Below are positions 29,153 to 38,955 of a stretch of 38,955 nucleotides of DNA, in pieces. Within the stretch, counting starts at the first letter, position 1, and each line of letters begins with the position of its first letter. Made by a program: the position numbers and the translations under genes. The stretch lies in the IMG/VR virus record IMGVR_UViG_3300046048_000346, positions 1-38,955 of that record. One strand, written 5' to 3'. The stretch comes from a virus. The notes under the pieces are model-generated. The model was not told where the DNA came from and searched no databases. It saw only the letters and a program-made list of their open reading frames with translations.

Positions 29153-29945
29153 AGGCTTGAGAGTAGTTGCCGTACCATGTCGTGCCGGCATCCCAGGTCA
29201 TTAACGTGACAACATCGATCGCACCCGCACCAACAGAGATCGTCGGCGCAGTTCCGCCGGGCCACTTGACCGATGCCGGCCATGCGACGGTGTAAGCACT
29301 CGCGCCCTGCGTGATCTTGATCACAATCTCACACAGGTTTCCGGTCGGTGACGGGTTGCTCAGAGAGAATGTCGCGTTCTCTGTCAGCGTTACCGTGAAT
29401 GCATTAGCTGACCCACCGGCAATATCGAAGTCGGGGGTTGCCGTTGACTGTGTGACCACGGCGTTGTTAATGCTGTAGTCGGCGAGCTCCGGTCGGATAA
29501 TCTGGTTGTCCTGCATATTGATCGTGGACGAGTGTGTCCTGGCACCAGAGATTGTTTCCGCCGCTGAATTCTTCGCGTAGTTCGCACCAAGGTCTGCAAG
29601 CACCGTCTCAAGCTCTGTCCCGGCGAAGTAAGACCCGGCATCGACAATTGCAATCTCCGACGCGGTTAACGGTGAGTGGATAGGATCGACGTCGTCCAGC
29701 TGCACATCATTCGTGTCAGTAATAATGCACCGGTAGGTGACATCCGGGTCGAGATAGATCGCTGCCCACTGACCACCCGCATCGGCCACGACCGGGTTCG
29801 CGTTGGCTGTACTCAGCGCATTGTCTGAGTAGGTGTTCGCTCTGGTCGTTGTTCCTGTCAGGTAAAAGTTCGCTTTCGCGCCGGCATAAGGTGCCCCGGT
29901 CGAGTCAATGCGAACCGCCTGCGGAATGTAAAATAATCTTGACAT
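29145..29945 (-). CDS. Tail spike/fibre with head-binding type N-terminus
   Basis: A 266-aa protein. The N-terminal ~85 residues (LFYIPQAVRIDSTGAPYAGA, KANFYLTGTTTRANTYSDNA, YLDPDVTYRCIITDTNDV) have the layout of a virion-binding module at the base of phage spikes and fibres. The C-terminal ~110 residues are Thr/Ser-rich strands. It is much shorter than P22 gp9 (667 aa) and lacks a beta-helix depolymerase. Its position after the ejection genes matches gp9. Confidence 0.75.
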   Translation of the reverse strand: MSRLFYIPQAVRIDSTGAPYAGAKANFYLTGTTTRANTYSDNALSTANANPVVADAGGQWAAIYLDPDVTYRCIITDTNDVQLDDVDPIHSPLTASEIAIVDAGSYFAGTELETVLADLGANYAKNSAAETISGARTHSSTINMQDNQIIRPELADYSINNAVVTQSTATPDFDIAGGSANAFTVTLTENATFSLSNPSPTGNLCEIVIKITQGASAYTVAWPASVKWPGGTAPTISVGAGAIDVVTLMTWDAGTTWYGNYSQAYA

Positions 29946-31447
29946 TACTTGGTCTTCCCCTCGATAACATCCAGAGCGGCTTTGTTAGCAGAACCGCGTC
30001 GTAACGCAGTAGATAATTGCCTGCCACCCTCGCCAATTGCGATAGACATAATTGCACCAACCGGGCCAAACATGGCTGCGGCAGAACCAGGCACAAGCGC
30101 GCCTGAAACAGCTCCCCTGACGGCAAACCTGCCGAGAAATGACGCCGCTTTTTGTGCCGCTGTCCCATCGACAATCGCCTCTAAAAGCTTTACTTCATTG
30201 TCATTGAACTGCCTGCGCCGGTTCTTGTTCATCAGGATCTGTCGAAATTCTGTTTTTAGGGCGTTGTCAAAGCCAGATCCGGTAAACTGACCAGACCTTA
30301 GCCTTGCCCGCTCAATGGCCCATGTGATCTCATCAGCCTTGAATTTCTGTGATGCCAGCTTGCGCCCTTGAGCATAAAGTGCCGGCGCATCGGTTGCGGT
30401 CCCGATAAACGCCTGATTCGGTATTGATACATAAGCCTCGTCATACATGTCCCTGATCATTCCGACCATTCTTGCGTCTTCTTTCGAATTTCGAACAGCC
30501 AGCGACATGGCACCATTCAATTGCTTTCGGATCACCTCCATTCCCTTCAGGGTGTGGTTCTTTCCGGCAGCTTCATTAATAACTTTTAATGCCTCCGCAG
30601 CTCCCGGATGTATCCCTGGTGCGTACCCCTCATCGGTCATTTTCTGCACAACATTGTTCCTGACAGAATCAAGATAGGATGCCTGCACACCACCCCCGGC
30701 AGCATCGGCCTGCTTATAGAAATTATTGACGTCAGCCTCAAGCTTTGAATAAGCGGCATCGACCTTCTCAGACCCGCCTTTTGGCTTCCTGCCTTTTGCG
30801 CCCTTCTCTAATTGCTTTTCAAGCGTGCCCTCGGACCCAAACAGTCGTCCGCCAAGTACAGCAGTCGCCATAGACAGACCTGTATAAACCGCGGCAGCGC
30901 CAACCGTGTCGTCCTCGCCACCAGTAGCAAAGGCGAGGTCATAAAGCGGCATTTCTGTCTCTTTGACACCCGGCAGCCAGTCCGTGACTTTGCGTGACAC
31001 TTGCCTCGCCGTGTCATCAATACCGCCGAGCAAGGCTTGACCCTGAATGGTTTTCGGTTGGTAAGTTCTTTTCTCTACCGTTTGCTCAACCGTATCGGCG
31101 AACGATTGATCGGGCTGCCTTTGCTGGTATTCCTGCCATTGCCGATCTGACCACTTCTCCGGCTTTTGAGGAATGCGGTTGATCTCATTCTCAATGCCGC
31201 GCAGGCCACCCTCCGCCATACCGTAAAGATTGGTCGCCCCGGTCAGGATGGCCTCACCTCCTCCAAGCAATACATCGTTCAATGACAGGTTTTTCATCCG
31301 GCTCCAGGTAGATTCGGCCTTTGTTTCAGGACGATCAACTTGAGGTTCCTCGACTGGGGCAGGTTCATTGACAAGACCGCTCTCCTCAAAAGCTGACCAG
31401 TCCTGTTGTGGCTGGACCTCCTCGAATTGTTCCCAGTTACTGGGCAT
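29945..31447 (-). CDS. Ejection (internal virion) protein, gp16 position
   Basis: A 500-aa protein with a Gln/Glu-rich N-terminus (MPSNWEQFEEVQPQQDWSAF) typical of phage internal virion proteins. Hydrophobic glycine-rich stretches (LLGGGEAILTGATNLYG; AVRGAVSGALVPGSAAAMFGPVGAI near 450) could insert in membranes. Long helices lie between. Synteny with P22 gp16 supports a role in forming the DNA channel through the host envelope. Confidence 0.75.
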   Translation of the reverse strand: MPSNWEQFEEVQPQQDWSAFEESGLVNEPAPVEEPQVDRPETKAESTWSRMKNLSLNDVLLGGGEAILTGATNLYGMAEGGLRGIENEINRIPQKPEKWSDRQWQEYQQRQPDQSFADTVEQTVEKRTYQPKTIQGQALLGGIDDTARQVSRKVTDWLPGVKETEMPLYDLAFATGGEDDTVGAAAVYTGLSMATAVLGGRLFGSEGTLEKQLEKGAKGRKPKGGSEKVDAAYSKLEADVNNFYKQADAAGGGVQASYLDSVRNNVVQKMTDEGYAPGIHPGAAEALKVINEAAGKNHTLKGMEVIRKQLNGAMSLAVRNSKEDARMVGMIRDMYDEAYVSIPNQAFIGTATDAPALYAQGRKLASQKFKADEITWAIERARLRSGQFTGSGFDNALKTEFRQILMNKNRRRQFNDNEVKLLEAIVDGTAAQKAASFLGRFAVRGAVSGALVPGSAAAMFGPVGAIMSIAIGEGGRQLSTALRRGSANKAALDVIEGKTK

Positions 31448-32618
31448 CCGGAACCCTCAAGACCCTTCCCTCCGGGTTTACAAACGATGTTCCCGGCGGT
31501 AATGACAACGCCTCTTGTGGCGTCGAAATAAACTGCATCCCGCTGGCAATGGCTGCCAACCCTGTTTGCTGGCGTCGAATTTTCTCGTAATGCTTTCGGA
31601 CACGCTTCAACGATTCGACCAGCGCAGGAACGCTTTGCGCCTGATCGAGCGAAGTAATCGCACCCTCAAGGAGATCCAGCTCCTTCTCTGAAATGGCACC
31701 CAATGCGCCACCCGTTTTTGACGCATCCCTCATCGCCTGCAACCGATCGAAGGCAAGCGACGATCTGATTGGCTGAAGGGCTGCCTTCAATGAACGGGCA
31801 TCCGTTGCGCCAAGTCCTGACATGATTTGTGCCATCGTGCCAGTTGACCACCAGTTTGCCAGCCCCATCGCGGCGTCTACCTGGGAGAGCGTTGAATCAA
31901 TACTATTGATCGAGGCTTGAGCAGCCATCGCCTGTTGCGGTCGATTTCTCTCGTCCTCGATAGCGTTTTTAGTCGTGACGTCCGCAGTTGTTTTTGCGGC
32001 GGCAACATCACCGGCAATTCTGGACTGACCAGCAGCCTCCTGATCAAGCGTAGACAGCGGAACCGGTGCTGCGCCCGTACCGCCGGCATCAGGCAACCCA
32101 CCGCCAGGCGGAACCCACGTTGGAACGCCACCAACATCCCGGAAAGTGCCAGCGTTATTAGCAGACAGATAAGCCTGTCGCTGCTCATCTGTTGCCTGCT
32201 CCCACCACTGGGCATTTTGCACTCTGGATGGCAGATCCGATTGCACCTCAGGCTGTCCACCAAGTTCCACCAAAGCGCCGTGATGCAAACCCTCGATCTT
32301 CTGCATCAACTCTTCTGGCGGAATCGTTGACGGGTCAAAGTCTGGCTGAATAAAGCCGCGGCTTTTACCTGTCTCGATCAGCTTCGGTAGTGCTTGCGGG
32401 TTTTTCAGGGCATACCCTGTCGCGCCGGCAAGCCACTGCAGTCCTTCCCGCGTTTGTGCATCGGCATCAGCAGCGCCCTGTCTTGCACGATCATCCTGTG
32501 CATACGCCATGTTCTGATTGGCAGCGTCCATCCTCAGCGCATTAAACTCATCGTCCTGGCGCGCAGTCTTACCGGCACCCCATGAGTCCTGCATACTAAA
32601 TGGTCTGAATTCAGGCAT
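31437..32618 (-). CDS. Ejection protein, gp20 position
   Basis: A 393-aa helical protein, MPEFRPFSMQDSWGAGKTAR, with a long Ala/Gln/Asp-rich N-terminal helix, a Pro/Gly-rich centre (PTWVPPGGGLPDAGGTGAAP) and a helical C-terminus (LLEGAITSLDQAQSVPALVE). It corresponds by position to P22 gp20 (471 aa), which is released into the host with DNA. Overlaps its neighbours slightly. Confidence 0.72.
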   Translation of the reverse strand: MPEFRPFSMQDSWGAGKTARQDDEFNALRMDAANQNMAYAQDDRARQGAADADAQTREGLQWLAGATGYALKNPQALPKLIETGKSRGFIQPDFDPSTIPPEELMQKIEGLHHGALVELGGQPEVQSDLPSRVQNAQWWEQATDEQRQAYLSANNAGTFRDVGGVPTWVPPGGGLPDAGGTGAAPVPLSTLDQEAAGQSRIAGDVAAAKTTADVTTKNAIEDERNRPQQAMAAQASINSIDSTLSQVDAAMGLANWWSTGTMAQIMSGLGATDARSLKAALQPIRSSLAFDRLQAMRDASKTGGALGAISEKELDLLEGAITSLDQAQSVPALVESLKRVRKHYEKIRRQQTGLAAIASGMQFISTPQEALSLPPGTSFVNPEGRVLRVPDAQ

Positions 32619-33304
32619 CAGTATCTCCTGGCCGGCAATGTTCGCATATTGATTGTCTGCAGCCCGTTTTTATCCGGCGCGTTCCATTGCGTTCCGGCAT
32701 TCACGTTATTACCGCCACCTTTTCTCTGGTCGTAATAGAGGTAGTTCGATATTCCACCCTGCACCGCCTTATTGATCGAGCTTCCGACCTCGTTGTGCAT
32801 ATTGGCCCGTGCATTACCTCGACCGATCATCGCATTGCCGACGTTCGCTGCATTCTGTGAACCGGCATTGGCAACATTCGTGGTTGCGTTCATACCCCGA
32901 TCTGCCATTCCAGAAGTCCGATCCCACCAGTTACCGAACTCACCGGCGGCAAGTCCAGAATTGAATTCAGCCAGTGCGCGCATCGCATTGCCACCAGAAC
33001 CACGCGCAGCAAATTGATTGCCAATCCCGCGGGTTCCCTCGGTACGTCTGAAATTGTAGTCAGGCGAGGTATAGAAGTCGGTCATATCGCCGGTTGCGGT
33101 TCGATCCAATCGACCGAGTGCGTCCGTGCCTGACTTCATGTATGGAGAGTAGTCCTGCCGGGTCTGCTCGTACTGCTTGCGACTTTCTTCAGCCGCGGCA
33201 TCGTATCCAGCAGTTTGTGCTCGTCCTGCCTTCTTCGCAGCATTCGCACCGGTAATGCCGGACACCACGCTACCGAGCGCCATCAATCCAGTTGCCAACC
33301 CCAT
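32618..33304 (-). CDS. Ejection/DNA transfer protein, gp7 position
   Basis: A 228-aa protein, almost exactly the length of P22 gp7 (229 aa). The Gly/Ala-rich hydrophobic start (MGLATGLMALGSVVSGITGA) and the Gln-, Asn- and Ala-rich helical body (NAAKKAGRAQTAGYDAAAEE) are typical of this ejection-protein group (DNA transfer protein p32-like). A C-terminal basic segment (NMRTLPARRY) follows. Confidence 0.78.
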   Translation of the reverse strand: MGLATGLMALGSVVSGITGANAAKKAGRAQTAGYDAAAEESRKQYEQTRQDYSPYMKSGTDALGRLDRTATGDMTDFYTSPDYNFRRTEGTRGIGNQFAARGSGGNAMRALAEFNSGLAAGEFGNWWDRTSGMADRGMNATTNVANAGSQNAANVGNAMIGRGNARANMHNEVGSSINKAVQGGISNYLYYDQRKGGGNNVNAGTQWNAPDKNGLQTINMRTLPARRY

Positions 33305-33724
33305 CTAAATCACCTTCACGTAGTGAGACTCAAAATGCTTGAATCCATGTCGTTCATAAATCTTGCCGACACCCTTGTCCAGTGCTGTCATTGACATCAT
33401 GGACAGTCGTTCAGCTCCGTGGGCTCTTGCCCATGATTCTAACCCATTTAATAGCTTTACACCCACACCATTGCCTCGTACCTCCTCATCGACCCACCAG
33501 AATAACTCAGTTGCCATCAGGCGCGACTTGTCGAAGAAGTGAGGCACGAGCAAGCCACCAACCATCGCACCCTCGTCGTAAAGAAGAACACCGAAATCCT
33601 CATCAATCAGCATCTCAAGGGTTTCAACAATAGATTCTCGCTCGCACCCCTCGCTAATTGCCGCACAAAACGCCCTGCCCATCCGCAACAACTCTGGTAA
33701 ATCATCCCTGGTCGCCGGCCTCAT
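33305..33724 (-). CDS. GNAT acetyltransferase-like protein, gp14 position
   Basis: A 139-aa GNAT-fold protein. Acetyl-CoA-binding motif A is seen in LFWWVDEEVRGNGVGVKLLN (residues ~74-93, with the R/Q-x-x-G-x-G/A pattern as RGNGVG). MRPATRDDLPELLRMGRAFC and MGKIYERHGF-like ends (GVGKIYERHGFKHFESHYVK) complete the fold. Such proteins occur at this place in many podoviruses, where P22 has gp14. It may be a virion assembly factor or an ejected enzyme. Confidence 0.82.
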   Translation of the reverse strand: MRPATRDDLPELLRMGRAFCAAISEGCERESIVETLEMLIDEDFGVLLYDEGAMVGGLLVPHFFDKSRLMATELFWWVDEEVRGNGVGVKLLNGLESWARAHGAERLSMMSMTALDKGVGKIYERHGFKHFESHYVKVI

Positions 33725-34302
33725 ATCACAAAATACTCCAGGTAAGACCCGGCAAGCACCGTCGTGTCACCGGCATCCGATGTATTCTGAGCCCAGTCAA
33801 ACGAAAAAGTGCCGGCATTCGATGCGTTCTGAACAAGGAAGTCTGCCTTCACACAACCACCAACCGTGCCTGATCCAATTGGTGTTCCAGTAACATTGTA
33901 TGCCTCGTCATTAAATTCTGTGAAGGCAGCATCACCAGGCGCAATATGCTCACCATTGATCCGCACCGCGGTCGGCGATGATGGGCCGGAAAATTCAAAC
34001 TTGAAGTCCGGGGCTGCCCCAGTGTCGAAAAACACCACCATCCTCCCCGCATAGACCGTATTCGCCTCCATCAGGAATTGAAGGTCTGAGTCTGCAGCTA
34101 AAGTCGTGGTTGAGTTTCGTGTCTCGTCATTCTCTTTTGACAGCCTCGTCCAAATACCAGCAACATCGGCCTGCAGTGCGGTTATATTTGATTCGATCAG
34201 CGTCGTGTCAGTTTCCGAACCGAGATCCTGATCGGACATCCACCGCGCCCATTCCTTCTCATCGGCAGGGACGGTGCGAAACGGTTTTAACTTGACCGTC
34301 AT
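33721..34302 (-). CDS. Candidate tail needle/knob protein, gp26 position
   Basis: A 193-aa protein. Residues ~35-58 (LIESNITALQADVAGIWTRL) form a short heptad-like helix, and residues ~80-193 are beta-rich (AGRMVVFFDTGAAPDFKFEF, GTFSFDWAQNTS), like a coiled-coil stalk with a knob. It lies directly after gp10, where P22 has the tail needle gp26 (233 aa). Assignment rests on position and layout; the stalk is much shorter than in P22. Confidence 0.55.
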   Translation of the reverse strand: MTVKLKPFRTVPADEKEWARWMSDQDLGSETDTTLIESNITALQADVAGIWTRLSKENDETRNSTTTLAADSDLQFLMEANTVYAGRMVVFFDTGAAPDFKFEFSGPSSPTAVRINGEHIAPGDAAFTEFNDEAYNVTGTPIGSGTVGGCVKADFLVQNASNAGTFSFDWAQNTSDAGDTTVLAGSYLEYFVI

Positions 34303-36305
34303 AGTCTGCCACCATCAACCTCGAGGATCGTGTCAACCACCGTCACCGGGATAGGATCTGAAACAGCGCACCGATATACCCGATCGCGTGACGACCCCAG
34401 GCCATACCAGACGCACCGGGTTAGCGTTTTCCCCGTGGCACCAATTGCCCGATCAGGCGCAGACTTCCAGTTACGACCACCGTCATCAGAGTACTGCAAC
34501 ATCAACTTCGGTGCCGAACCCTGCCCGGTTTCTGTTCCAATGCCCGTCTCAAGGATGATCTCAAGTCGCTTGTGGAATGCCCTCTGACCATCTGCGTAAA
34601 CGGTCTGGTATGTCCACTGCATTCGCTGCGTACCAACCCGAGTCTTGATCACTGCCGTCTGGTTACCTGCTAGTGGGGAGTCGGTGGATTCATACGTTGT
34701 CGGATATTTGCCCTTCTCCATCTGCGCGTCGGCAAGAAGGATCGACGAGGTGCCATCAAGGGCAACCGTAATATCCGCATCAGCGTCCGCGGCATAAACC
34801 TGGATAAACCCGGTGACATCGGCAACCGTGGTCACAACCAGGTAACAACGATAGTACCCGTTGCCGGCGGGAATCATTCCAGACGCATCTATTCCTGACC
34901 CGATCGTTCCCTTCTGACCGTTCGCCAGGTCGAAATAACCATCAACATCACCCGGCATATCCGTGAACCCGGAAAACAACAAATAGACCCAGTCGAGTTG
35001 ATCAGGTTTTGCCTTAATCGAGAAAACGTACTGCGTTCCGGCCTCTAGCGTCAGACCCTGGTAACAGGTCACGTTGCCCGTGCCACCACCGGAATCATCA
35101 AGGATCTGCGCCGCATGAGTCGTTCCATTCGGCCCGACTGCGTAGGCATCGGTCACCCCGGTATCGCCGCCAGGTGTCCAATAGATAGCATTCGCAAACT
35201 TGCCAGAGCTCCTGATCAGATTCGTCGTGTCTGTTCCCCAGTCGGTAAACTCATCGAAACTCAGGTATCCGATCCGGTTACTGTTTGAATCCCCAACCAG
35301 TTCCTTGCCGGCAAACTGCTCATGACAATTGATCTTCCAGTTATTCTCGTTGTAGGTCTTACGTTCTGCCCACTCACCAGTAGACAGGTCGTAAGCGTAC
35401 GTTCCCTCATCAAAGGTCAGCACGTAGAAATAATGACCGTCCTGCTCGTAAGTAAATGCCCTGCCAGTTGACGTGGTCGCTGCCGATACCGCCTGGTCGA
35501 TTGCTGGGTTCGAGATCTTGACCGGTGTAATCCCGTCGAGTCTTCTCACAGAATAATCGTCTGCCAGCCAGATCAGGATATTGTCGATTTCGGCAACCGT
35601 CGCCGGGTTCAGGCAACCCATCTGTATCGTCGCGTTAACAATACGCTCAAACGGAAACCCCGATGCGCCCGTGTTCTCGTAAAGCTCAAGCGTTCTCGAC
35701 CCAAACGCATGAAGAATTCTGTGATGCGACTTGATGCCTTTCAGGTCATCAGGTGAAGAATCGGCAACAGCAAACTGCAGCGCATTGAAGTCGGTAGCCG
35801 AACCAACATCGGCACCGAAGAAGTTCGGGGAGTTGGGCTGGCGAAACAGCAGAAAGTTATCAAGAAACTCTACGTCACCCGCTCCACGTGAAACCAGGTC
35901 GTCATCGAGGATCTGCTCGAAGGTCGTCCCGTCCCAGTGGAAGGCATTCGGTTCATTGACGACCACAACATCGGTCGTGTTCGAGCCAATATCCACCCTG
36001 ACCTCATCACCAACCGTGCCGATCAGCGTCACATTCTTATCTGAATCGACGTAATACAGCTCGCTACCGGAAACCACGTACAGGTATTCGTAATAGCCTG
36101 TAGTCAGGTCAATCTCGGCTGAGTACATGGCGACAATAGGCCCATCCCCGACCTCTTGCCATGTCGGGATGCCCGGTGCGCGAGTGACCATGACCGGGGT
36201 TTTACCCCCGGCTGGCATCAGCTCGGCAAAGCAATTGACCAATTTGGCAGAGCTTGCGGGTCGACTGCGGATTTCGTATGAATGGACAGGTAAATTTATT
36301 TTCAT
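34299..36305 (-). CDS. Packaged-DNA stabilisation/tail hub, gp10-like, with inserted module
   Basis: A 668-aa homologue of P22 gp10 (472 aa), the hub joining portal and tail. Residues 1-350 (INLPVHSYEIRSRPASSAKL, VNCFAELMPAGGKTPVMVTR) and 550-668 (LMLQYSDDGGRNWKSAPDRA) match the family. Residues ~361-543 are an extra domain with the NLIRSSGKFAN...YWTP start, the TQYVFSIKAKP middle and the ADAQMEKGKYPTTYEST end. These mark jelly-roll glycan-binding-like modules usually found on fibres. Confidence 0.85.
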   Translation of the reverse strand: MKINLPVHSYEIRSRPASSAKLVNCFAELMPAGGKTPVMVTRAPGIPTWQEVGDGPIVAMYSAEIDLTTGYYEYLYVVSGSELYYVDSDKNVTLIGTVGDEVRVDIGSNTTDVVVVNEPNAFHWDGTTFEQILDDDLVSRGAGDVEFLDNFLLFRQPNSPNFFGADVGSATDFNALQFAVADSSPDDLKGIKSHHRILHAFGSRTLELYENTGASGFPFERIVNATIQMGCLNPATVAEIDNILIWLADDYSVRRLDGITPVKISNPAIDQAVSAATTSTGRAFTYEQDGHYFYVLTFDEGTYAYDLSTGEWAERKTYNENNWKINCHEQFAGKELVGDSNSNRIGYLSFDEFTDWGTDTTNLIRSSGKFANAIYWTPGGDTGVTDAYAVGPNGTTHAAQILDDSGGGTGNVTCYQGLTLEAGTQYVFSIKAKPDQLDWVYLLFSGFTDMPGDVDGYFDLANGQKGTIGSGIDASGMIPAGNGYYRCYLVVTTVADVTGFIQVYAADADADITVALDGTSSILLADAQMEKGKYPTTYESTDSPLAGNQTAVIKTRVGTQRMQWTYQTVYADGQRAFHKRLEIILETGIGTETGQGSAPKLMLQYSDDGGRNWKSAPDRAIGATGKTLTRCVWYGLGSSRDRVYRCAVSDPIPVTVVDTILEVDGGRL

Positions 36306-36311
36306 GATAAA
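36283..36311 (+). promoter_or_regulatory. Possible promoter of the opposite-strand ORF
   Basis: TGGACA (36283-36288), 17-base spacer, GATAAA (36306-36311) on the plus strand, five and four matches to consensus. Transcription would begin only about five bases before the ATG at 36323. Confidence 0.35.
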
Positions 36312-36322
36312 CTTAGCCAGTT

Positions 36323-36541
36323 ATGCAGCGATTTCCTGACATCATCATCGAGTCGAAAGACGGGCGAACCATTCGGCTTGTAACCGAAAGGGCAGCGCAG
36401 TGGCTTGCCACCGACAGAGAGATGCCCGTGAGCGAACTCAGACGATCTACTGTCGCAATTAGTGATGGCGACACCCTTATCGACGACGCATACCTTAGTG
36501 GACTCGCTATCAAGACTCATTCAGGGCATTCCTTGATTTAG
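36323..36541 (+). CDS. Lone opposite-strand ORF (72 aa)
   Basis: A 72-aa frame, MQRFPDIIIESKDGRTIRLV, then TERAAQWLATDREMPVSELR and STVAISDGDTLIDDAYLSGL, with the composition of a soluble globular protein. It fills the only 204-bp gap in the late genes but runs against them. There is no ribosome-binding site, so it would be near-leaderless. Competing minus-strand frames here look less protein-like. It may be a moron-type gene or chance. Confidence 0.42.
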   Translation: MQRFPDIIIESKDGRTIRLVTERAAQWLATDREMPVSELRRSTVAISDGDTLIDDAYLSGLAIKTHSGHSLI

Positions 36542-38087
36542 TTTTCTCGTCGATGTCTTTGTATACCCCGGCAGCAACCTTGCCGGCATCACCACCGGAT
36601 GGATCACCAAGTGAGCCGCGTTGCCTTGAAAGAACATTCGTGTTCGGCTTTTCGAATATGGCCTTACCGTCGCGCTTCACTTGTTTAATGATGTCGGGTG
36701 TGAACGGGACTATGTTGCGGGTACCGTCACCTGCTTTACGTGAGTTGCCGTCGTAATAACGGATACCGGGGATGCCACGTTCATTCAGCTGTTTGGAGGC
36801 GATCTTGTCACCAGTATTCAGGGCCAACCCGCGGTATATTCTTTGGCCTGTTTTGGTTCCCATTGCCTCAAGTGCGGCTTTTTTGGTTGGGTATCCATCA
36901 ATGGTATGGCCAAAAGCAGAGAGCACCCACTGATCAGACTGGCCGGCATTAGGATCTTTGAATACTTCAAGCTGCAACGCTTCCCGCACACTCTCAGGCT
37001 GCTCACTCAGCGGCGCATCCCAATCCAGCATCTTGCCTATGGTTTCGTCAGGGATGTCTACTTCGTAGAGGTGGCCTGATCTGTCTACGGCATCTCTTAA
37101 TGACTGAGAAGCGTCCCAATTATCTAATTTTCCACTATAAGAGGCAGAAATAGCTTGCGATGGATAATCAAACCCGAGCCAATCATTCTCATCAAGAGCG
37201 CGAATAATTGCTTCTTGATCTGGCGTAAAAGTGCCCTGCCCAATCTCAGCCAAAACGTCATCAATCTCAGCATCTTCTGGTAACGCATCCAAAAACCTTT
37301 TTTGTGCGTCTTTTGCAGAAAGTCCATGACGATAACTATTAGCCACCCCCGGATTCTCGGCAAAGTAACCGACCGGGGTATAGCCATAAGCCTGCGCCCC
37401 CTCACCACTGAACGCGTTGTCAGGATGGAATATGTCGAGGATGTTCTCGGTCTTACCACCTTCTGGGATCTTGTTGTATCGACTGTACGGCGATCCGTGA
37501 TAAGCAACCATTCCCCACTCATCTGGAAACTTCTTCGAGAGCTTGCCCATGCTATTCGCGATCCTCGCCTCGCTACCACCAGGTAACCACGTTTCAGCAA
37601 CACCAGTCCCCAGTGCATAAATTCCGCCGGCAATGGTCGGGCCAAGCAGTGCATTCGCATACGGTTCCGCCTTACGCATTGCAGTGCCGATCGGGTATGT
37701 GACCTTAGAAACACCTTCACCAACCGTCCTGAGCGTGTTCGTCGCACTCTCGCCCGGTTGGTATGTGAAACGCTCCCGCGCCTTATCAATGCGGTCTACA
37801 GCGTCATCAATCTTCGTGCGACCGGGTGCAGGATCTTTTGCCAGACCGATCAGCGCATTCGTGCCACCGATCGCATCAGCAGCAAGACCAGACCCAACCA
37901 TCATCCCGGCCTGACCGATATCAGTCGCTACCTGGCCGGCCTGCTGCGTCGTTGTCCCAGGGGTGAAATACTCGCTAGGGTTGTTGATATCCCACAGCAC
38001 AGACCCGTCGCCGAATATGTCTGTCCAGCTTTTCTTCTTCTCCGGGCCAAGTCCTGCGGAAGGGATTCTTGGTGATTTATCAGGCAT
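36510..38087 (-). CDS. Putative ADP-ribosyltransferase, ejection-type
   Basis: A 525-aa protein. Residues ~20-170 are Gly/Ala-rich with hydrophobic stretches (TDIGQAGMMVGSGLAADAIG; LLGPTIAGGIYALGTG) like ejected proteins. The C-terminal half has the pattern of ART domains in phage polyvalent proteins: VAYHGSP (residues 194-200), GEGAQAYGYTPVGYFAE (228-244), LYEVDIPDE (340-348), LNERGIPGIRYYDGNSR (434-450). It would transfer ADP-ribose from NAD to a host protein after ejection (inference). The ATG at 38085-38087 overlaps the gp4 stop; an upstream start lies inside gp4. Confidence 0.72.
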   Translation of the reverse strand: MPDKSPRIPSAGLGPEKKKSWTDIFGDGSVLWDINNPSEYFTPGTTTQQAGQVATDIGQAGMMVGSGLAADAIGGTNALIGLAKDPAPGRTKIDDAVDRIDKARERFTYQPGESATNTLRTVGEGVSKVTYPIGTAMRKAEPYANALLGPTIAGGIYALGTGVAETWLPGGSEARIANSMGKLSKKFPDEWGMVAYHGSPYSRYNKIPEGGKTENILDIFHPDNAFSGEGAQAYGYTPVGYFAENPGVANSYRHGLSAKDAQKRFLDALPEDAEIDDVLAEIGQGTFTPDQEAIIRALDENDWLGFDYPSQAISASYSGKLDNWDASQSLRDAVDRSGHLYEVDIPDETIGKMLDWDAPLSEQPESVREALQLEVFKDPNAGQSDQWVLSAFGHTIDGYPTKKAALEAMGTKTGQRIYRGLALNTGDKIASKQLNERGIPGIRYYDGNSRKAGDGTRNIVPFTPDIIKQVKRDGKAIFEKPNTNVLSRQRGSLGDPSGGDAGKVAAGVYKDIDEKTKSRNALNES

Positions 38088-38496
38088 CGGTGTTGATGTC
38101 CCATCGCGAACCGTAATGGCCCGTGCCGGATGGCATATGAGACATATCAAGAGAGCCAAGACCCTCGGCAATCAGCTTTCGCTTCAACTTACTAATCGAG
38201 GAGTCCAGCATCGACGCAGTCTCAGCAGAGAGACTCGCGCCGTATGTCGGCGCAATCATCAGCGCCAATGCACTGGTTATCGCTATCTCGGCGTAGGTCG
38301 GGATCGGACAGGTTCCGGCAGTGGAACCCTGCGCGAAGTACCCGACATCAATGCCGTCCTCACGCAGCACCTCCATCAATTGGTTTAACTTCCTGAGACA
38401 GGTCGAACCCTGCTCAGAAGACGCCGAATCAACCTCCGATATAACGCCAATCTCTCTCAGCGCATCCTCGATCAACTGCAGGTTGGTTATGCTCAT
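38080..38496 (-). CDS. Tail accessory factor, gp4-like
   Basis: A 138-aa protein, MSITNLQLIEDALREIGVIS, then SCLRKLNQLMEVLREDGIDV and IAITSALALMIAPTYGASLS. This is the recognised layout of P22 gp4-type head completion/tail accessory proteins (P22 gp4: 166 aa), which extend the portal and form the platform for gp10. No separate lysozyme motif is visible. Flanked by the methyltransferase and the ART-like gene, both insertions relative to P22. Confidence 0.88.
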   Translation of the reverse strand: MSITNLQLIEDALREIGVISEVDSASSEQGSTCLRKLNQLMEVLREDGIDVGYFAQGSTAGTCPIPTYAEIAITSALALMIAPTYGASLSAETASMLDSSISKLKRKLIAEGLGSLDMSHMPSGTGHYGSRWDINTDA

Positions 38497-38955
38497 TCAG
38501 GTTCCTTGATTGCTCGCATTGCAAAGACAAAAGTGTCACCCATCTCGTTGCAGGTTAATAATTCAAAGTCTCCATCCCAGTACGGTCGATAGTCGGTCAT
38601 CGCACTATTGCCTACCTGTACTTTGTACTCTTTTTGGCTCAGAAAAACCAACGTCGCGGAGCTGATTACCCGCTTGTGACCGGGGTCGCCCCACGCCCAC
38701 ACACCGTCCCACATCGGCGTCGTGCCAACAAATAATCCGCCCGGTTTCAATATGCGCCAGAACTCATAAAACTGGTTGAAGAAAAAGCGCCAGTCACCCT
38801 GCTGACCTGTATGCTCAAGCACCTCGTAAGCATGGATCTCATCGAACATATCATCGTCAAACGGCAACGGCAGGTTCTCTAAATCCCATACGATATCCGG
38901 CTCGAGGTTCGGGTCGATGTCCAGCGTGGTCAGCTCAGTCCATTCAGCCGGCATA
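38493..38955 (-). CDS. SAM-dependent methyltransferase, main part (starts at 222)
   Basis: The larger part of the 174-aa methyltransferase; its 5' end is the segment at 1-222. Visible class I motifs are LDIDPNLEPDIVWDLENLPL, then FDEIHAYEVLEH (acidic loop and post-II motif) and the ILKPGGLFVGTTP strand-turn (motif III type). It is short for the family, suggesting a minimal core. It overlaps gp4 by four bases. Substrate unknown; coupling to the glycosyltransferase suggests methylation of a transferred sugar. Confidence 0.78.
   Translation of the reverse strand, partial: MPAEWTELTTLDIDPNLEPDIVWDLENLPLPFDDDMFDEIHAYEVLEHTGQQGDWRFFFNQFYEFWRILKPGGLFVGTTPMWDGVWAWGDPGHKRVISSATLVFLSQKEYKVQVGNSAMTDYRPYWDGDFELLTCNEMGDTFVFAMRAIKEPE
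38796..38955. repeat. Right copy of the terminal overlap
   Basis: Repeats bases 1-160 with one substitution at 38829 (A for C). The exact run after the variant is 126 bases. The complete methyltransferase gene is obtained by joining 38795 to 1. Confidence 0.9.

Follow-up and report, generated by a model that had tools for sequence, protein, structure and literature searches.

The closest described relatives of the protein discussed here are the ART-PolyVal domains (PF18760; PMC5512222), which carry a histidine in an HGS/T motif on strand beta1 and a tyrosine region on beta2, occur in polyvalent proteins of phages and plasmids, and are predicted to be delivered with the DNA. This class of ADP-ribosyltransferase (ART) has been predicted to be packaged into the virion and injected, and has been likened to Alt of phage T4 (Iyer 2017, PMC5512222; 2022, PMC9503650). 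Alt is a packaged ART that is delivered with the DNA and modifies host proteins early in infection; of the two proteins, only Alt has established packaging, injection and activity. Alt belongs to the R-S-E clade of ARTs, which is not that of the present protein (PMC5512222), and the comparison between them is one of logic only. ARTs have been reported in only 3% of podoviruses (PMC9503650). One podovirus protein resembling ours is gp5 of Sulfitobacter phage phiGT1 (QLB38217.1), likewise a stand-alone ART-PolyVal-like protein encoded in the structural block; mass spectrometry of phiGT1 has been published (PMC10386132). In the PARPs the active site is an H-Y-Y-E tetrad (PMC7955679).

The window, by which we mean the whole stretch of DNA analysed, spans the 38,955 bases of an IMG/VR virus record, and its ART gene sits in a block of virion genes. 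We tentatively take the product to be most likely a virion-delivered mono-ADP-ribosyltransferase, carried as cargo by a P22-like podovirus and containing a predicted NAD+-binding ART domain. The genes that matter for the argument are the following, in window coordinates:

38080-38496, minus strand: gp4-like head-tail adaptor (phrog_637 Ad3, E 1.4e-15)
36510-38087, minus strand: ART-PolyVal-like gene, 525 aa, from the ORF list, relatives and the model
36302-36520, minus strand: possible 72-aa ORF in the gap between ART and gp10, coding status uncertain
34299-36305, minus strand: gp10-like head closure / packaged-DNA stabilisation protein (phrog_578 Hc3, E 1.2e-93)
32618-33304, minus strand: gp7-like DNA ejection protein (phrog_598, E 6.9e-30)
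29945-31447, minus strand: 500-aa ejection-type internal protein, assigned from position and composition, with weak similarity to the ART N-terminus

The ART reading frame is intact, running from an ATG at 38087 to a stop at 36510-36512 with no internal stops, and its start lies in the last 8 nt of the gp4-like gene, giving a stop/start overlap. Downstream of it come the gp10-like gene, a gene for a 193-aa unknown protein, a GNAT protein, the gp7-like gene and two larger ejection-type proteins. The GNAT acetyltransferase-like gene (33305-33724, minus strand; PF00583, E 2e-10) stands where the IVPA gene is found in phiGT1, a gene described as a homologue of P22 gene 14 (PMC10386132), and near that place L100 and L101 encode a protein that appears cupin-like by eye. 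Upstream of gp4 the window has a methyltransferase-like gene (38493-38954, minus strand), and its relatives have glycosyltransferase-like genes (L098:4317-5587 and L099:3412-5573), accompanied in L099 by radical-SAM-like genes, these two types being assigned by eye; the stretch from capsid to gp4 carries enzyme cargo in the window, L098 and L099. Within the 668-aa gp10-like protein of the window there is an insert of approximately 200 aa (residues about 358-558, with a match to the tail protein family phrog_5939 over 360-541), which is also present in L099 (660 aa) and missing from L098, L100 and L101.

The ART protein can be divided into an N-terminal region and a C-terminal domain that carries two inserts:

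37533-38087, minus strand: helical, G+A-rich N-terminal region, residues 1-185; helices in the AlphaFold2 model, mostly at pLDDT below 50
36648-37520, minus strand: ART-fold domain, residues 190-480, pLDDT mostly above 90, homologous to domain model m2c0b6c442c98, for which the best 33 PDB matches all have the ART fold
37080-37316, minus strand: all-helical insert module in the beta2-beta3 loop, residues 258-336 (DWLGFDYPSQAIS), very confidently modelled by AlphaFold2
36855-36941, minus strand: beta-beta-alpha hairpin insert, residues 383-411, DUF2188-like by eye (strands 387-391 and 394-399, helix 402-411)

A sequence-only reading of this DNA had proposed the gene as a candidate ART, and when this was checked by AlphaFold and by structure and profile comparison with ART families the ART fold was recovered. 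The AlphaFold2 model of the full protein, built from 87 aligned rows, has pLDDT mostly above 90 at residues 190-200 and 231-480, and about 60 in the 200-230 loop. Foldseek searches of the PDB with this full-length model returned weak matches only, none of them significant, and we therefore modelled a compact relative, the domain of L003 (L003:2859-3605; pLDDT 88.7, pTM 0.82). Its best 33 PDB matches are all ART-fold proteins, headed by MbcT (E 5.6e-3, prob 0.98), which we take to be an ART-fold NAD+ phosphorylase toxin, and including exotoxin A domain III, cholix, RES toxins and diphtheria-like toxins. These fold matches are distant, with TM values of 0.3-0.4 and 13% identity for MbcT. The window model itself has 23 Foldseek matches in BFVD at E<=0.001, several of them named ART-PolyVal-like, and a family profile run against PDB sequences placed tankyrase catalytic domains first, with the H and Y motifs aligned, at a marginal E of 0.068. 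On these models residues about 190-480 almost certainly adopt the ART fold.

The three motif strings on which the sequence-only reading relied, YHGSP (196-200), GEGAQAYGYTPVGYFAE (228-244) and GIPGIRYYDGNSR (438-450), are all present and highly conserved in relatives. They are not chance resemblances, because tblastn against phages finds relatives in 4 annotated records at E 1e-13 to 1e-16, more than 570 IMG/VR stretches encode relatives, and 12 positions of the domain do not vary across the 87 proteins aligned. The 4 records are phiGT1 gp5 (387 aa, stand-alone, from a podovirus; 32.5% identical to the window ART over 169-476) and three giant proteins of 1500-3000 aa. Used alone, the window protein matched nothing in Pfam (to E 10), NCBIfam or the PDB sequences, and a genome scan with this single sequence found no locus, while a scan with the alignment as query gave 74 loci. 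Among the 16 proteins first aligned, 13 matched PF18760 at E<=1 (best 2.5e-7), 9 matched DUF3990 and 3 weakly matched PARP; the curated PF18760 cut-off of 31.2 bits was reached by no member of the branch scored singly, the relatives checked scoring 13-29 bits. Profile-profile comparison gave 93% (E 4e-7) against canonical ART-PolyVal, over the beta1-beta2 half only, and 81% against RPP1 vRNAP, the ART-PolyVal prototype of Iyer et al. Together with the ART-PolyVal-like viral models, these matches bear out the earlier description of the C-terminal domain as ART-PolyVal-like, and the family belongs around ART-PolyVal (PF18760). It differs from canonical ART-PolyVal in having Pro for the Asp of the YDG motif, Asn for E/Q and long loop inserts, and the window gene is stand-alone whereas the canonical domains are part of giant proteins.

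Several loci combine such domains with one another or with other enzymes. L113:3943-9516 encodes an 1858-aa protein with both a canonical E-type ART-PolyVal domain (E 3e-29) and an Asn-type copy from the present branch, L050:5445-10178 has two tandem ART-PolyVal-like domains within one protein, and L018:547-5049 (Tunturi_5) pairs a full domain with a further match that is only partial. In L022:2876-5065, just upstream of a terminase-like gene, an ART-PolyVal-like domain is fused to a C-5 cytosine DNA methylase (E 5e-26).

The helical module, approximately 78 aa in length, shares 50.7% identity (E 2e-20) with a stretch from the archaeal virus MetMV, and its GC3 is 0.31 over residues 262-335 compared to about 0.55 elsewhere. 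MetMV, a Methanosarcina virus, encodes a 3000-aa protein with an ART-PolyVal-like domain, but there the module lies in the beta4-beta5 loop, between the YLDxxSR motif and the Asn strand, as it also does in three bacterial-contig proteins, and the beta2-beta3 loop of the MetMV domain is nearly absent. The beta2-beta3 position is shared by the window protein and 14 distinct instances among the loci. One helical module therefore occupies two different loops of one fold, within a set of loci that were all fetched through ART motifs, so that occurrences outside ARTs would be missed. The hairpin insert has a counterpart in L024, where a similar stretch matches DUF2188 at E 0.057; this WVxxxG..TKKEAL hairpin is found in the beta3-beta4 region of the window ART and, in a similar version, in the beta4-beta5 loop of L024 (about residues 447-482).

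The position of the gene, which had been read as an insertion between gp4 and gp10, was confirmed by its flanks, which match phrog_637 and phrog_578, and by the corresponding junctions of relatives, which lack it. P22 presumably has no gene between gp4 and gp10 either. In 9 of 10 relatives checked gp4 abuts or overlaps gp10, and in the remaining one, L100, an HNH endonuclease gene occupies the slot. gp4 runs directly into gp10 in the IMG/VR relatives L098 (gp10 66% identity), L099 (57%) and L101 (gp4 54%), and no ART gene was found when the records of these three were searched. Junction genes also abut or overlap in 6 annotated phage records containing more distant gp10 relatives, where most, but not all, of the six have a gp4-type annotation for the gene that precedes gp10. 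No near relative of this region came up when phage records were searched at the DNA level. The earlier reading needs one correction, in that the insertion extends beyond the ART gene: 204 nt, possibly holding the 72-aa ORF, also separate the ART stop from gp10. Two 72-aa ORFs overlap on opposite strands in this gap (36302-36520, minus; 36323-36541, plus), the minus-strand one slightly overlapping both the ART gene and the gp10 gene, and searches with these small ORFs returned neither relatives nor family matches. No promoter-like site was found in the insertion, which makes it likely that the gene is expressed together with the late genes. The ART gene is cargo that has been inserted where gp4 and gp10 meet, and its absence from sister phages argues against a core structural role.

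The predicted NAD+ pocket and the third catalytic position are formed by the following residues:

37497-37499, minus strand: His197, H of the HGS motif on beta1, aligned to the tankyrase HGSP motif
37365-37367, minus strand: Tyr241 on beta2, after a two-residue insertion; Y in 87/87
37332-37334, minus strand: Tyr252, second Tyr of the PARP-type H-Y-Y pocket; Y in 87/87
36714-36716, minus strand: Asn458 on beta5, at the E/D/Q position of other ARTs; N in 84/87

The pocket histidine and tyrosine of tankyrase and PARP catalytic domains align with the branch, while the residue equivalence to the PARP tetrad, including that of the second Tyr, comes from our own alignment; PARPs have Glu where the branch has Asn, and the overall similarity is marginal. 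At the third catalytic position Asn is found in 158 of 159 distinct domains collected by pattern. D357, D446, S449 and R450 are conserved in 87/87. Canonical ART-PolyVal copies, including the one in L113, mostly have E or Q at the Asn458 position and an invariant Asp in YDG; the branch has Pro (P440) in place of this Asp, in 77/87, in a by-eye alignment against A7. Equating the YDG Asp with the Asp of H-Y-D in PMC5512222 is our own assignment. Of the features that define the H-Y-[EDQ] clade, the beta1 His and the beta2 Tyr are present and a beta5 E, D or Q is absent (N458). The branch thus falls outside both the H-Y-D description (PMC5512222) and the H-Y-[EDQ] definition, with the predicted NAD+ pocket apparently kept.

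The window copy is itself unusual. The His197 column holds H in 79 of the 87 proteins and Q in 8, and the closest relatives of the window copy are among those with Gln. Spacing before Tyr241 is normal in 85/87, the two extra residues of the window copy being almost unique; Phe and Thr stand at two near-invariant glycine columns (226 and 237), and the beta1-beta2 loop has 28 residues compared to the usual 14. A frameshift was considered as the cause of the oddity near Y241; the other two frames lack any family motif, and this is not an obvious frameshift.

We lean only slightly towards predicted catalytic transfer of ADP-ribose by this site. A pseudo-enzyme, less likely in our judgement but a serious rival, would use the ART fold to bind NAD+, ADP-ribose or another ligand without transfer, and would act as a binding or decoy protein or have a minor structural role close to the portal or tail. 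The near-universal replacement of the catalytic acid by Asn, the Gln in place of His even in the closest relatives, the insertion beside Y241 and the 'head and packaging' label of the phrog_873 family would all fit such a protein, but H, Y and Y are retained almost everywhere, the Asn is strictly kept rather than drifting, and the four residues D357, D446, S449 and R450 are invariant. Moreover, several mono-ART PARPs function without the Glu.

How the protein might reach its site of action can be judged from its surroundings. The ART neighbours of relatives are repeatedly of the terminase, portal and scaffold families (the family counts overlap); in the close relative L021 the gene lies between portal and scaffold, and phiGT1 gp5, which is without the helical module, is within the portal-to-scaffold stretch and not at gp4/gp10. 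In bacterial contigs and other phages the domain is found inside proteins of 1500-3000 aa, several of which, including those of bacterial contigs, carry LPD, MuF-C, transglycosylase, ddrB-ParB or pyrophosphatase domains. The N-terminus had been read as Gly/Ala-rich and ejection-like. The first part stands in modest form, G+A being 26% over residues 1-185, 19% in gp4 and gp10 and 23-29% in the phage's own ejection-type proteins; the second is weak, with a BLASTP E of 0.006 to the 500-aa ejection-type protein and pLDDT mostly below 50. A shuffle test of that pair gave a z of 4.5, yet the best of 300 shuffles equalled the real score, and the region had no PHROG match at E<=0.001. A TYQP-like N-terminal motif that the ART would have in common with ejection proteins was dropped as a candidate after being found in only 2 of 96 proteins. 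The likeness of the N-terminus to an ejection protein is suggestive only.

We consider virion delivery of the ART protein fairly probable as a prediction, and an Alt-like, virion-carried logic is plausible, as predicted for the class in PMC5512222 and PMC9503650. An active ART that is made late, stays unpackaged and acts in the same cell, on host targets or to exclude competing phages, seems improbable: the gene is a dispensable, moron-like insertion in a late operon, as this would have it, but its relatives are encoded among terminase, portal and scaffold genes and are joined to MuF-C, transglycosylase and LPD domains, as is typical of virion proteins, and its own N-terminus bears a weak likeness to the ejection-type protein of this phage. 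A NADase or NAD+ phosphorylase that degrades NAD+ with no macromolecule modified, so that the infected cell is starved or signalled, is likewise improbable, since the MbcT match that heads the PDB results of the compact relative, where RES toxins also rank high, is one of fold only, the motifs are PARP-like (HGSP and GxYFAE), and polyvalent-protein ARTs have been grouped, by inference, with macromolecule-modifying enzymes (PMC5512222).

A virion-delivered mono-ADP-ribosyltransferase could work as follows. The gene would be read with the late virion genes through translation coupled to that of gp4, and the protein would be made alongside the head and tail parts, entering the particle with the ejection proteins by means of its N-terminal region. 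Released into the cell along with the DNA, it would bind NAD+ in the H197/Y241/Y252 pocket, as the conservation suggests, and may, in the early stage of infection, attach one ADP-ribose to a macromolecule of the host. As the usual catalytic acid is replaced by Asn, the transfer would need to be substrate-assisted or to draw on another conserved acid, D357, D446 or E229, so that mono- rather than poly-ADP-ribosylation is expected. The loop inserts would likely serve target recognition. Points against a virion-delivered mono-ART are N458, the odd residues near Y241, the two altered glycine columns and the long beta1-beta2 loop, the Gln relatives, the lack of a Pfam match, the distance of the PDB matches and the low model confidence over residues 1-185.

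We infer the ART fold and the Alt-like reading from these comparisons; neither is new, and the kind of protein is already known. The new details are the H-Y-Y-N site, the relocating helical module and the gp4/gp10 slot. A more general proposal, which we regard as doubtful, is that one widespread group of phage ARTs operates through an H-Y-Y-N site lacking an acid in the customary catalytic position, that a mobile helical module able to enter either of two loops of the fold sets the target, and that podoviruses gain such genes as a ready-made virion cargo at gp4/gp10. Apart from T4 Alt, ARTs delivered by virions have been predicted but are, as far as we found, unproven, and a simple test case is offered by a small podovirus whose ART gene stands alone and is dispensable and whose sister phages have none. 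The invariant Asn gives a clear prediction, either mono-transfer or none, and a module that can sit in either of two loops amounts to a natural experiment on the way in which ARTs acquire targets.
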